60,946 nucleotides of DNA from positions 1 through 60,946 of the forward strand of contig CAMWKB010000004.1 of the NCBI GenBank assembly GCA_947174705.1. The letters run 5' to 3'. Positions 38,873-49,784 of this stretch are shown here, piece after piece. Position 1 is the stretch's first letter. The number at the start of each line of letters is the position of its first letter. Below the pieces are notes generated by a model. It was not told where the DNA came from, ran no database searches, and saw nothing but the letters and a program-made list of their open reading frames with translations. A program made the position numbers and the translations under genes. The DNA is from an uncultured Lachnospiraceae bacterium. Lineage in GTDB: Bacteria > Bacillota > Clostridia > Lachnospirales > Lachnospiraceae.

Positions 38873-39646
38873 ATGAAAATCCATATTATTCAACACGATT
38901 CATGGGTAGAACCGGGTGAATACATAGTATGGGCGGATAGGAACGGATACGAGGTTTCTTACACAAAATGCTGGAAATACGAAAGTTTTCCTAAGAATGC
39001 AGACGCTGATGTACTCATTATTCTCGGCGGATTACAGTGTCCGGCAACAACTCTTGATGAATGTGACTATTTTGATGCTGCTTCGGAAAAGCGATTTATT
39101 AAAATGTACATTGATGCAGGCAAAGTGGTCATTGGCGTTTGTCTAGGCGCACAACTCGTTGGCGAGGCTTTAGGCGCAGAATATGAGCACAGCCCTGAAC
39201 GTGAAATTGGTCCTGTCTATGCAAGACTGACTGAAGATGGACGGGAAGATCCGTTTTTAAAACATATGCCGGATGTATTTTATGCCGGAGCATGGCATAA
39301 TGATATGCCGGGACTTACTTGTGAGTCCAAGGTTCTTGCAAAGAGTGATGGATGCCCAAGACAAATAGTGCGATATGGAAAGTATGTATATGGCCTGCAG
39401 ACTCACATGGAATTTACCCATGATATTATTGTAAAAGGGATTCAGAATTCGGAAGACAGTTTGTCAAAGAGTGAAAACGAGCGTTTTGTTCAATCTAAAG
39501 AAGAACTGCTTTCTTTCGATTACTCGGAGATGAATGAACAGTTATCCGTTTTTCTGGATTCTATGATTGGTGATTATATTAAACATAAAAATATAGCAGG
39601 AGGCAACTGTGTTATCAGAGGAAAATCAAAGAAACATAAAAAGTGA
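38873..39646 (+). CDS. Class I glutamine-amidotransferase-like protein
   Basis: 257-residue GATase1-fold protein. The nucleophile elbow GVCLGAQLVGEALG and the C-terminal QTHMEFTHD (His, Glu) are present, as are LIILGGLQCPA and AGAWHNDMPGL, typical of stand-alone amidotransferase/gamma-glutamyl-hydrolase-like proteins. It has no synthetase partner nearby. GGAGGAG is well placed before the ATG. The last 38 bases overlap the tethered binding-protein gene, so it heads this sensor operon; its role there is unexplained. Confidence 0.85.
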   Translation: MKIHIIQHDSWVEPGEYIVWADRNGYEVSYTKCWKYESFPKNADADVLIILGGLQCPATTLDECDYFDAASEKRFIKMYIDAGKVVIGVCLGAQLVGEALGAEYEHSPEREIGPVYARLTEDGREDPFLKHMPDVFYAGAWHNDMPGLTCESKVLAKSDGCPRQIVRYGKYVYGLQTHMEFTHDIIVKGIQNSEDSLSKSENERFVQSKEELLSFDYSEMNEQLSVFLDSMIGDYIKHKNIAGGNCVIRGKSKKHKK

Positions 39647-40601
39647 TAGAAACTTTTGGAGCATACTTATTCTGGTCAATATTGTAATACTTACATTATT
39701 ATTTTTAGTCTTCTTTGGAAATAAAGATTATTCCGTCAATCAGAAGAGAAATTCCTATTTAATCGGCGCAAGTTATATGACAATGAACAATGAATTTTAT
39801 AAGGTTCTCAGTGAGGAAATCAGTGCCAAAGTGGAAGCGGAAGGGGACATGATGATACTTAGGGACCCTGCGCTTGATGAAAATAGGCAGATTGAACAGA
39901 TTAGTGAAATGTTAGATATGGGGATTGATGTATTGGTGTTGACACCGGTAAATTGGGAAAGTCTGACTGATGTTTTAAAAAGAGCCAAAAGCCAGGGCGT
40001 ATTCATTGTTGTAGTAGATACAGAGGTATATGATGATGATTTAGTTGACTGCACGATTACATCAGATAATTATGCAGCAGGAGTTATTGTGGGAGAATAT
40101 TTCTTAGAACAGCATGATAGAGCAGATGTTATTGTCATGACACATGAAACGGCCAAATCGGGGTTGGACAGAGTAAAGGGATTTATAGATACTGTCAGTG
40201 TTAAGAATGGAATTAATATTGTACAAAAAATAGAATGTGAAGGTCAGTTGGAGATAGCGATGCCTAAACTTCAGGAAGCCATAGACAGCAAGCTTTCTTT
40301 TGACAGTGTTTTTTGTTTGAACGACCTTGCCGGTGTCGGTGTGGTTGCGGCATTAGAAGAAAATCACCTGCTGGATAAGGTAAGTGTATATGGAGTAGAT
40401 GCATCGCCTGATTCCAAAGCATTGATCAATGAAGGGATGATGACGGCGTCTGCAGCACAATTTCCATCTGAGATAGGAAGTAAGGCGGCTGACGTAATTT
40501 ATAAATTGCTGAATGGTGAAAGTGTGGAGAAAAAAATATTAGTGTCAGTAGAGCTGATTACACAGGATAATGTGGAAGAATTTGGAATAGACAGATGGTA
40601 G
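39609..40601 (+). CDS. Membrane-tethered sugar-binding protein (RbsB/LacI fold)
   Basis: 330-residue protein with a single uncleaved N-terminal membrane segment (about residues 17-37) and no lipobox Cys, followed by a type I periplasmic-binding domain: DENRQIEQISEMLDMGIDVL, LTPVNWESL, TSDNYAAGVIVGEYF, FCLNDLAGVGVVAAL and VYGVDASPDSKAL. Starts at GTG 39609, just after AGGAGG. No permease or ATPase lies nearby, so it is likely the sensing subunit of the adjacent histidine kinase rather than a transporter part (inference, as known for XylFII-LytS and ChvE-VirA). It ends 20 bases before the likely kinase start. Confidence 0.85.
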   Translation: MLSEENQRNIKSDRNFWSILILVNIVILTLLFLVFFGNKDYSVNQKRNSYLIGASYMTMNNEFYKVLSEEISAKVEAEGDMMILRDPALDENRQIEQISEMLDMGIDVLVLTPVNWESLTDVLKRAKSQGVFIVVVDTEVYDDDLVDCTITSDNYAAGVIVGEYFLEQHDRADVIVMTHETAKSGLDRVKGFIDTVSVKNGINIVQKIECEGQLEIAMPKLQEAIDSKLSFDSVFCLNDLAGVGVVAALEENHLLDKVSVYGVDASPDSKALINEGMMTASAAQFPSEIGSKAADVIYKLLNGESVEKKILVSVELITQDNVEEFGIDRW

Positions 40602-40621
40602 TAAGAAATGGAGAGAGTATC

Positions 40622-47859: not shown

Positions 47860-48117
47860 ATGGTATCATTTAAATTTACTGTAAATGACGAAATGGGATT
47901 ACATGCAAGACCGGCTGGAGCTTTGGTAAAAGAGGCTGTACAGTGTACGAGTAAGGTTACGATTAAGAAGGGCGAGAAGTCAGGCGATGCCAAGCGTATC
48001 TTTAACGTGATGGGCTTATCAATTAAAGCAAACGAAGAAGTCGAAATTATCGTAGAGGGTGAAAAAGAGCAGGAAGAAGCGGCAGCTCTTGAAGCGTTTG
48101 TGAAAGAAAATATATAA
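47860..48117 (+). CDS. ptsH: HPr-like phosphocarrier protein with Arg at position 46
   Basis: 85-residue HPr. The catalytic site is normal (H15 in GLHARPAG), but the regulatory segment, KSIMGVM in typical Gram-positive HPr, reads K45-R46-IFNVM. Ser46, the target of HPr kinase and the co-repressor signal for CcpA, is therefore absent. It should carry phosphate to IIA but not join carbon-catabolite signalling through Ser46 (inference from HPr knowledge). Immediately before Enzyme I. Confidence 0.93.
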   Translation: MVSFKFTVNDEMGLHARPAGALVKEAVQCTSKVTIKKGEKSGDAKRIFNVMGLSIKANEEVEIIVEGEKEQEEAAALEAFVKENI

Positions 48118-48152
48118 TAGTCGATAATGCGAGAGAAAGGCATGGTATTGAT

Positions 48153-49784
48153 ATGGAGAAAGTAAGTGGTAAATCAATCGTACAGGGAATCGCTATTGGA
48201 AAAATATTATGTTACCAGAAGGCACAGCAGAGCGTTAAACGTATAAAAATCGAGGATACGGACGCCGAAATAAAACGCTATGAGGCAGCGAAAGAAACTG
48301 CAATCAAACAATTAAATGAATTATATAAAAAGGCAGTAAAAGAAGTCGGCGAAATGAACGCAGCCGTATTTGAGGTTCATGCTATGATGATAGAGGATGG
48401 AGACTATGTGGAATCCATACAAAACATCATAAACTCAGAACAGGTCAATGCGGAATATGCAGTTGCGACAACGGGAGATAATTTTGCAACAATGTTTTCC
48501 GAAATGGAAGACGACTATTTTAAGGCGCGTGCTGCGGATGTAAAAGACATTTCGGAAAGGCTCATTGATATTTTGAGCGGAAACGAAAACAAAGCTGGTG
48601 CCGGAAGCACAGAACCGTTTATTATCATAGCGGATGATTTAGCGCCCAGTGAAACAGTGCAAATGGATAAAGAAAAGCTGCTTGCCTTTGTAACAAGGTT
48701 TGGGTCATCGAATTCCCATACGGCAATTTTGGCAAGGACCATGAATATTCCTGCGGTGATTGGCGTTGATATTAAGGAAGAATGGGATGGAAAACTTGCA
48801 GTTGTTGACGGATATTCGGGCACTCTGTATATTGAGCCTGATGAAGATATTTTAAACCAGATGAAGAAAAGGCAGGAAGAGGACATACAATCCAGAGAAC
48901 TTCTTCAACAGTTAAAAGGAAAAGAAGATGTTACTCTCGACGGAAAACATATTAAATTATATGCGAATATCGCGGGTGTAAAAGATGTGGCAAGCGTACT
49001 TGCCAATGATGCTGCCGGAATTGGTTTGTTTAGAAGTGAGTTTTTATATCTGGAATCGGAAGATTACCCCAGTGAGGAAACACAGTTTCAGGCATATAAG
49101 ACCGTAGCGCAGAATATGGCGGGTAAAAAGGTAATTATCCGGACATTGGACATCGGCGCCGATAAGCAGATTGATTATTTTAATATGGAACATGAAGATA
49201 ATCCGGCTATGGGTTACCGTGCAATCCGTATCTGCTTAGACCGTGTTGATATTTTTAAAACCCAGTTAAGGGCGTTACTGAGGGCAAGTGCATTTGGCAA
49301 TATAGCAATCATGTATCCTATGATCATTTCTGTGGACGAAGTACGCAAAATTAAAGAAATCGTAGAAGAAGTGAAAGCAGAATTGGATGAGAATGGCATA
49401 AAATACGGGGACGTTGAACAGGGAGTTATGATTGAAACGCCCGCGTCTGTTATGATCAGTGATATGCTGGCAGAGGAGGTAGACTTCTTTAGCATAGGCA
49501 CAAACGATCTGACTCAGTATACACTGGCAATAGACAGGCAGAATATGAGACTTGACAATATTTACGATTCTCATCATCCTGCAGTACTGCGCATGATAAA
49601 GATGACCGTGGAAAATGGACATAAACATGGATGCTGGGTAGGAATCTGCGGTGAACTTGGAGCAGACTCGACGCTGACACAGACTTTTATAGAGATGGGC
49701 ATAGATGAACTGTCAGTATCACCGTCTTATGTATTGCCGATTAGGAAGAAAATACGGGAATCTAAGGCGGGATGTGCTGATTAG
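48153..49784 (+). CDS. ptsI: PTS Enzyme I
   Basis: 543-residue PEP-protein phosphotransferase. N-terminal domain (KSIVQGIAIGK), phospho-His H189 in SSNSHTAILARTMNIPAV, PEP-binding barrel GIGLFRSEFLYLE, MIETPASVMISDMLAEE, FFSIGTNDLTQYTLAIDRQN and catalytic Cys in GICGELGAD. The segment before the active His (FGSSNSH in place of the usual GGRTSH) is somewhat divergent, perhaps specialised to this HPr. Slightly shorter than usual (about 570). Last gene of the operon; a terminator follows. Confidence 0.93.
   Translation: MEKVSGKSIVQGIAIGKILCYQKAQQSVKRIKIEDTDAEIKRYEAAKETAIKQLNELYKKAVKEVGEMNAAVFEVHAMMIEDGDYVESIQNIINSEQVNAEYAVATTGDNFATMFSEMEDDYFKARAADVKDISERLIDILSGNENKAGAGSTEPFIIIADDLAPSETVQMDKEKLLAFVTRFGSSNSHTAILARTMNIPAVIGVDIKEEWDGKLAVVDGYSGTLYIEPDEDILNQMKKRQEEDIQSRELLQQLKGKEDVTLDGKHIKLYANIAGVKDVASVLANDAAGIGLFRSEFLYLESEDYPSEETQFQAYKTVAQNMAGKKVIIRTLDIGADKQIDYFNMEHEDNPAMGYRAIRICLDRVDIFKTQLRALLRASAFGNIAIMYPMIISVDEVRKIKEIVEEVKAELDENGIKYGDVEQGVMIETPASVMISDMLAEEVDFFSIGTNDLTQYTLAIDRQNMRLDNIYDSHHPAVLRMIKMTVENGHKHGCWVGICGELGADSTLTQTFIEMGIDELSVSPSYVLPIRKKIRESKAGCAD

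Follow-up and report, generated by a model that had tools for sequence, protein, structure and literature searches.

Sugar-binding proteins can serve as receptors for sensor kinases, as in XylFII-LytS and ChvE-VirA, which use one binding protein, employ other classes of kinase and regulator, and are not known to have a phosphotransferase system (PTS) as target. A mannose-family PTS for fructose is encoded by the Bacillus subtilis lev operon, whose LevR is a PTS-controlled sigma-54 activator. Closer to the locus examined here is the LevQRST system of the caries bacterium Streptococcus mutans. It comprises two tethered sugar-binding proteins of the ATP-binding cassette (ABC) type, a kinase with up to five transmembrane segments and a NarL-type regulator; levTSRQ lies directly upstream of levDEFG, which encodes the Enzyme II of a fructose/mannose PTS activated by LevQRST, no functional ABC transporter is reported nearby, and similar operons occur in six species, Dorea longicatena of the Lachnospiraceae among them (PMC3043104). 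A second source likewise classes LevR as NarL type (PMC3353171). Here we analyzed positions 38873-49784 of the window, a 60,946-nucleotide stretch that forms one contig (C4) of the draft genome of an uncultured Lachnospiraceae bacterium (2.79 Mb, 184 contigs, 84.5% complete). The locus is very probably a four-component sensor with its target PTS of the LevQRST-levDEFG type, the steps of action proposed below included.

The open reading frames and their Pfam/NCBIfam matches bear out the genes and the order given by the original prediction, all on the + strand and with no ABC permease among them:

38873..39646, +, class-I glutamine amidotransferase (PF00117, NF006098)
39609..40601, +, LevT-like RbsB-type sugar-binding protein, predicted to be tethered, first sensor gene (PF13407, Peripla_BP_4, 5.6e-42)
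40595..41944, +, LevS-like sensor histidine kinase (HisKA_3 and HATPase; five predicted membrane helices)
41937..42614, +, LevR-like NarL/LuxR response regulator (PF00072 and PF00196)
42611..43954, +, LevQ-like SBP_bac_1 protein, predicted to be tethered, last sensor gene (PF01547)
44086..44514, +, PTS IIA, mannose family (EIIA-man, PF03610)
44527..45021, +, PTS IIB, sorbose/mannose family (PTSIIB_sorb, PF03830)
45048..45887, +, PTS IIC (EII-Sor, PF03609)
45889..46722, +, PTS IID (EIID-AGA, PF03613), the single IID found in the draft genome
46747..47025, +, 92-residue membrane protein (no Pfam/NCBIfam match)
47030..47839, +, HAD (Hydrolase_3) phosphatase (PF08282)
47860..48117, +, HPr with His15 kept and Arg46 in place of Ser46 (PF00381, residue table)
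48153..49784, +, PTS Enzyme I (PF05524/PF00391/PF02896), the single Enzyme I found in the draft genome

The RbsB-type protein was assigned the place of LevT and the SBP_bac_1 protein that of LevQ because of gene order. The GTG start of levT at 39609 is preceded by AGGAGG, and the nearest solved structures of its product are sugar/ribose-binding proteins (2ioy_A, 7.8e-29). A simple hydropathy scan, from which all helices were read, gave each binding protein one N-terminal hydrophobic helix and found a lipobox in neither; anchoring and outside location are predictions from it. As in XylFII-LytS and ChvE-VirA, a binding protein would act on a kinase, but the window has two binding proteins and a PTS as predicted target. 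The PTS family is shared with the B. subtilis lev operon, whereas the LevR-like protein is a two-component regulator of NarL type, not a sigma-54 activator.

With S. mutans the window agrees gene for gene: two binding proteins with predicted anchoring flank a two-component pair (Pfam, hydropathy), the order is T-S-R-Q with a mannose-family IIABCD immediately after it, the kinase has several transmembrane helices and little extracellular part, and the regulator is of NarL class. Six of eight published LevQ residue positions and a putative dyad at -72 to -59 of the target promoter correspond as well. The kind of system is already known, and the window appears to hold a Lachnospiraceae version of it with HPr and Enzyme I in the operon. 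The earlier reading of the locus was largely right in its logic; its inclusion of an amidotransferase as a member (see below) is not supported, nor is its view of the combination as undescribed, since the latter is the LevQRST-levDEFG arrangement, for which an operon of D. longicatena is also listed (PMC3043104). Differences nevertheless exist. levDEFG is described as encoding an Enzyme II complex only, without HPr and Enzyme I, and the S. mutans system also drives the fructanase gene fruA; the window operon has both phosphorelay genes, its HPr lacks Ser46, and relatives pair the same sensor type with ABC transporters. The variant features are three: HPr and Enzyme I encoded in the operon, the loss of Ser46 from that HPr, and a single operator type that serves PTS outputs in some genomes and ABC outputs in others; no description of HPr/Enzyme I-bearing or ABC-coupled Lev forms was found among the literature matches listed, in a search that left much subscription literature outside.

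The LevQ assignment was examined by scanning the open frames of the loci for eight published S. mutans residues (H69, C161, E170, D202, Y254, F261, F292 and T313). Six of them recur in the window SBP_bac_1 protein at a constant offset of +8:

E178, window equivalent of S. mutans E170
D210, window equivalent of D202
Y262, window equivalent of Y254
F269, window equivalent of F261
F300, window equivalent of F292
T321, window equivalent of T313

At least five of the eight stood at the published numbers in ten rows, three of which are second copies of the same DNA; all are relatives of the window protein, 38-51% identical to it. Only 4 of 697 long frames in 80 genome loci reached five or six residues. 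In S. mutans, the paired changes E170A/F292S are reported to free LevQ from its inducer requirement (PMC3043104).

Alignment searches of genome contigs confirmed 434 relatives, and locus counts refer to the best 80 of these 434. The order LevT-kinase-regulator-LevQ was kept in 66 of the 80 loci, or 74 if a divergent LevT is allowed. IIABCD followed levQ directly in 42 and directly preceded the sensor in three, and an ABC sugar transporter adjoined the sensor in 17. Among these 42 loci with the PTS genes behind levQ, several of which end early, 37 held the small membrane protein, 36 the HAD gene, 27 HPr and 21 Enzyme I. Some match to the SBP_bac_1 protein was present in 82 of 98 genomes (its own included), a close one (E <= 3.2e-81) in only 13 besides its own. 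In the phylum of Candidatus Stoquefichus massiliensis (Bacillota), 22 of 392 genomes had a relative at E <= 1e-50; three were already in the locus collection, and the other 19 formed the Stoquefichus-phylum set. All 19 loci of this set had the four sensor genes, with IIABCD after them in 14 and before them in three, and the IIB, IIC and IID proteins of the window are 66-81% identical to those of the PTS joined to the same sensor there. Eleven further loci from the same genus or order had ABC systems beside the sensor in eight and IIABCD in none; two same-genus PTS loci (L043, L044) duplicate L077 and L081 and were left out of zone and locus counts. The gene order is thus not a matter of chance (66/80; 19/19). 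A plasmid search with the LevQ-like protein returned 444 records, with 21-27% identity among the 25 listed.

Two side observations concern these relatives. The same sensor module and box (described below) stand beside RbsABC-type sugar ABC transporters in L045-L052 and in the ABC-linked loci of L060-L139. In L053 (~8289-15000, minus strand), a LevQ-like protein adjoins a fructose-type PTS (IIA, IIBC, HPr), a PfkB kinase and a chemotaxis receptor, and the 19.9-kb stretch contains no kinase or regulator resembling those of the window.

Between levQ and IIA, the window carries the following putative control elements:

43958..43971, +, putative LevR box 1, ATGACAACTGGCAT, 1 mismatch, 82 bp before the -10
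43980..43993, +, putative LevR box 2, GTGACAAATGTAAT, 2 mismatches, 60 bp before the -10
44003..44016, +, putative LevR box 3, GTGACGCATGTTAG, 4 mismatches, 37 bp before the -10
43994..44040, +, hairpin with T-rich 3' arm (-24.6 kcal/mol, z -7.3; terminator scan)
44040..44045, +, putative -10 hexamer TATACT of the PTS promoter, at fixed spacing to the boxes in relatives

The palindrome ATGACANNTGTCAT is common to the regions between levQ and IIA, occurring with at most one mismatch in 45 of 55 (window included) against 0.16 in shuffles. A box with at most two mismatches stood exactly 60 bp before a -10-like hexamer at 27 of the 55 PTS promoters; when the DNA behind the last box was shuffled, the mean was 0.995 and the largest value 4. 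At up to three mismatches, the main box-to-(-10) offsets were 60 (43 cases), 37 (35), 82 (20) and 81 (14). A sigma-70 scan gave no full promoter at 44040, as expected with a weak -35. With the -10 hexamer set by convention at -12 to -7, box 2 covers -72 to -59 from the inferred start site. In S. mutans, fruA expression is reported to depend on a dyad at -72 to -59, the likely LevR target (PMC9241797); box 2 is likened to it by position.

Because the PTS regions had supplied the consensus, the ABC loci serve as an independent test. When the 330 bp ahead of the first transporter gene were taken as a zone, a box with at most one mismatch was present in 53 of 65 PTS and 22 of 27 ABC cases, at densities of 2.8 and 3.4 per kb, respectively; DNA outside these zones had 0.0107 per kb, and five decoy palindromes matched in G+C produced a single hit across all zones. 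An initial zone assignment had taken another ABC operon in L109, L123 and L133, giving 46/55, 9/12 and 19/29 for consensus PTS, other PTS and ABC zones; the zones were reassigned after these first results had been seen, and the reassigned figures (53/65, 22/27) are those used. Also independent of the consensus are the PTS loci outside the 55 (7 of 10 at up to one mismatch, two duplicates removed) and the S. mutans coordinate. The box stands ahead of the transporter also where that is an ABC system or precedes the sensor.

These data bear on the possibility that sensor and PTS operons are mere neighbours, the binding proteins serving an ABC permease elsewhere and the PTS being housekeeping. A strong hairpin does separate the two operons, overlapping box 3 and reaching the -10, and probably terminates the sensor operon. 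Moreover, contig C3 carries three and contig C28 one further Peripla_BP_4 gene scoring above the family cut-off. We nevertheless consider this very unlikely, given that IIABCD adjoins the sensor in 45/80 and 17/19 loci, that the spacing between boxes and the -10 of the transporter promoter is fixed, that boxes accompany the transporter whatever its type or side, and that both binding proteins combine an N-terminal hydrophobic helix with no lipobox.

For the LevQRST-levDEFG-type reading, the box array supports the operator stretch that had been proposed at 43959-44002. A second proposed stretch, 38739-38752 upstream of the amidotransferase gene, had no box match at up to two mismatches and was dropped as a candidate. 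Boxes upstream of levT occurred in 9 of 90 zones (0.38 per kb, above the background of 0.011), a minority, and a general autoregulatory site there was likewise rejected. At up to one mismatch the window's own genome had 16 sites against 20 for a reversed-pattern control, so that no regulon, a fruA-type target included, could be read from it. A literature search for TGACAAATGTCA matched one paper, on Escherichia coli PhoB.

The phosphorelay genes set the window version apart. All 28 lev-linked HPrs (the window and 27 loci) keep His15 and have Arg (25) or Lys (3) at position 46. Left out of this count were L044 (duplicate of L081), L085 (a fragment without position 15, with Leu at 46 and not PTS-linked), L053 and L175 (other HPrs, with Ser46), and the own-genome copies L007/L056 and L008/L057. 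The draft genome has five HPr-like genes over the cut-off, three of them strong: besides the window gene, the HPr on C2 (L057) has His15 and Ser46, and the HPr-like protein on C35 (L056) is Crh-like with Glu15 and Ser46. The latter shares its contig with the one HPr kinase found and lies beside genes that we take to be whiA and rapZ, as for Crh. With Arg46, the window HPr should carry phosphate without being an HPr kinase target and therefore without feeding CcpA-type repression.

The draft genome yielded one Enzyme I, a single IID and no PF02378-type EIIC, in searches that did not extend to other EII families. Because it is the only one found, the window Enzyme I would be the cell's Enzyme I rather than a second, private one. 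The predicted private phosphorelay thus holds in part: the operon does encode HPr and Enzyme I, with a distinctive HPr, yet this Enzyme I seems to be the only one in the cell. Across 33 other genomes with 0 to 3 Enzymes I, compared by hand for the places of loci and Enzymes I, the lev Enzyme I was the only one found in five (G496, G501, G518, G519, G520) and was accompanied by others in 14; in the remaining 14 the lev locus lacked it or the contig did not include it. A private Enzyme I therefore holds in some lineages. The window arrangement departs from the clostridial pattern, in which Enzyme I and HPr genes are reported to be monocistronic (PMC3024867).

We propose that the LevT-like (RbsB-type) and LevQ-like (SBP_bac_1-type) proteins, tethered to the membrane, would bind extracellular sugar and both act on the membrane-embedded LevS-like kinase, which has short outside loops. 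The kinase would phosphorylate the NarL-type LevR-like regulator, which would recruit RNA polymerase after binding a tandem array ahead of the PTS promoter, made up of three 14-bp dyads at a spacing of 22-23 bp. IIABCD would then import and phosphorylate the sugar, with the operon of this lineage supplying its own HPr and Enzyme I and the Arg46 HPr carrying phosphate, escaping HPr kinase and staying outside CcpA-type catabolite repression. The conserved order and the conserved operator array at the PTS promoter speak for what had been predicted at the core, two receptors, a kinase and a regulator switching on the neighbouring PTS.

More tentatively, and with somewhat less than even confidence, LevTSRQ and the three-box promoter may form a portable input module of Clostridia and other Bacillota for PTS or ABC importers. 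In Lachnospiraceae and related Clostridia it would have been joined to a complete phosphorelay with an HPr that HPr kinase does not recognise, placing the PTS (in some genomes the cell's only one) under outside sugar and shielding it from HPr-Ser46 catabolite repression. The assignment gives many Lachnospiraceae operons that lack characterisation a model with known genetics, and it predicts the regulator binding site to the base pair. It also reveals a sensor that goes with either PTS or ABC importers, and an HPr without Ser46, which hints at how a PTS might operate free of the usual catabolite repression.

Several points weigh against the Lev assignment. The window boxes match the consensus weakly, with 1, 2 and 4 mismatches, and 12 of 65 PTS and 5 of 27 ABC zones lack a box at up to one mismatch. 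Since that consensus was derived by visual inspection of the 55 PTS intergenic regions, the figures for the PTS loci do not count as independent. LevQ H69 and C161 have no match in the window protein. Homology to the S. mutans Lev proteins is suggested by published positions, order and domains, LevQ alone being compared by residues, indirectly, and LevT, LevS and LevR being likened by order and domains. HPr and Enzyme I are not a general part of the system (27 and 21 of 42 loci; either one after IIABCD in 0 of 14 Stoquefichus-phylum loci). Finally, IIA and IIC rank best with the AgaF and AgaW (N-acetylgalactosamine, GalNAc) models.

This last point leads to the sugar, which by analogy with S. 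mutans would be fructose or mannose. Alternatively, the sensor may control the PTS for an amino sugar or another sugar (e.g. N-acetylglucosamine, GalNAc or mannosamine), and its occurrence beside ABC transporters in relatives means that the ligand probably varies. The AgaF and AgaW matches, however, are below the curated cut-offs, the best-ranking models for IIB and IID are general ones of the sorbose/mannose family, and no amino-sugar deaminase or deacetylase was found among the operon genes scanned. The identity of IIB-IID to the Stoquefichus-phylum PTS beside the same sensor also argues against it, in a comparison that had the S. mutans PTS outside its scope. We consider another sugar less likely than not.

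The amidotransferase had been predicted as a component, and a functional role as fifth member of the Lev-type system could be read from the 38-bp overlap of its gene with levT in the window genome. No match at E <= 0.01 was found in 110 related loci (80 + 19 + 11), of which 92 extend 1 kb or further beyond the start of levT, nor in the two same-genus PTS relatives, of which L043 holds just 1.3 kb ahead of levT. The gene is probably a neighbour and not part of the system; we disfavoured it as a component, a role that now appears exceedingly improbable.

Elsewhere in the window, positions 8842-11878 encode an FGGY sugar kinase followed by a protein with an L-fucose isomerase C-terminal domain, and positions 15865-22359 encode a 2164-residue protein with pectate lyase, CHB_HEX_C_1, Fn3-associated and Listeria-Bacteroides repeat domains.

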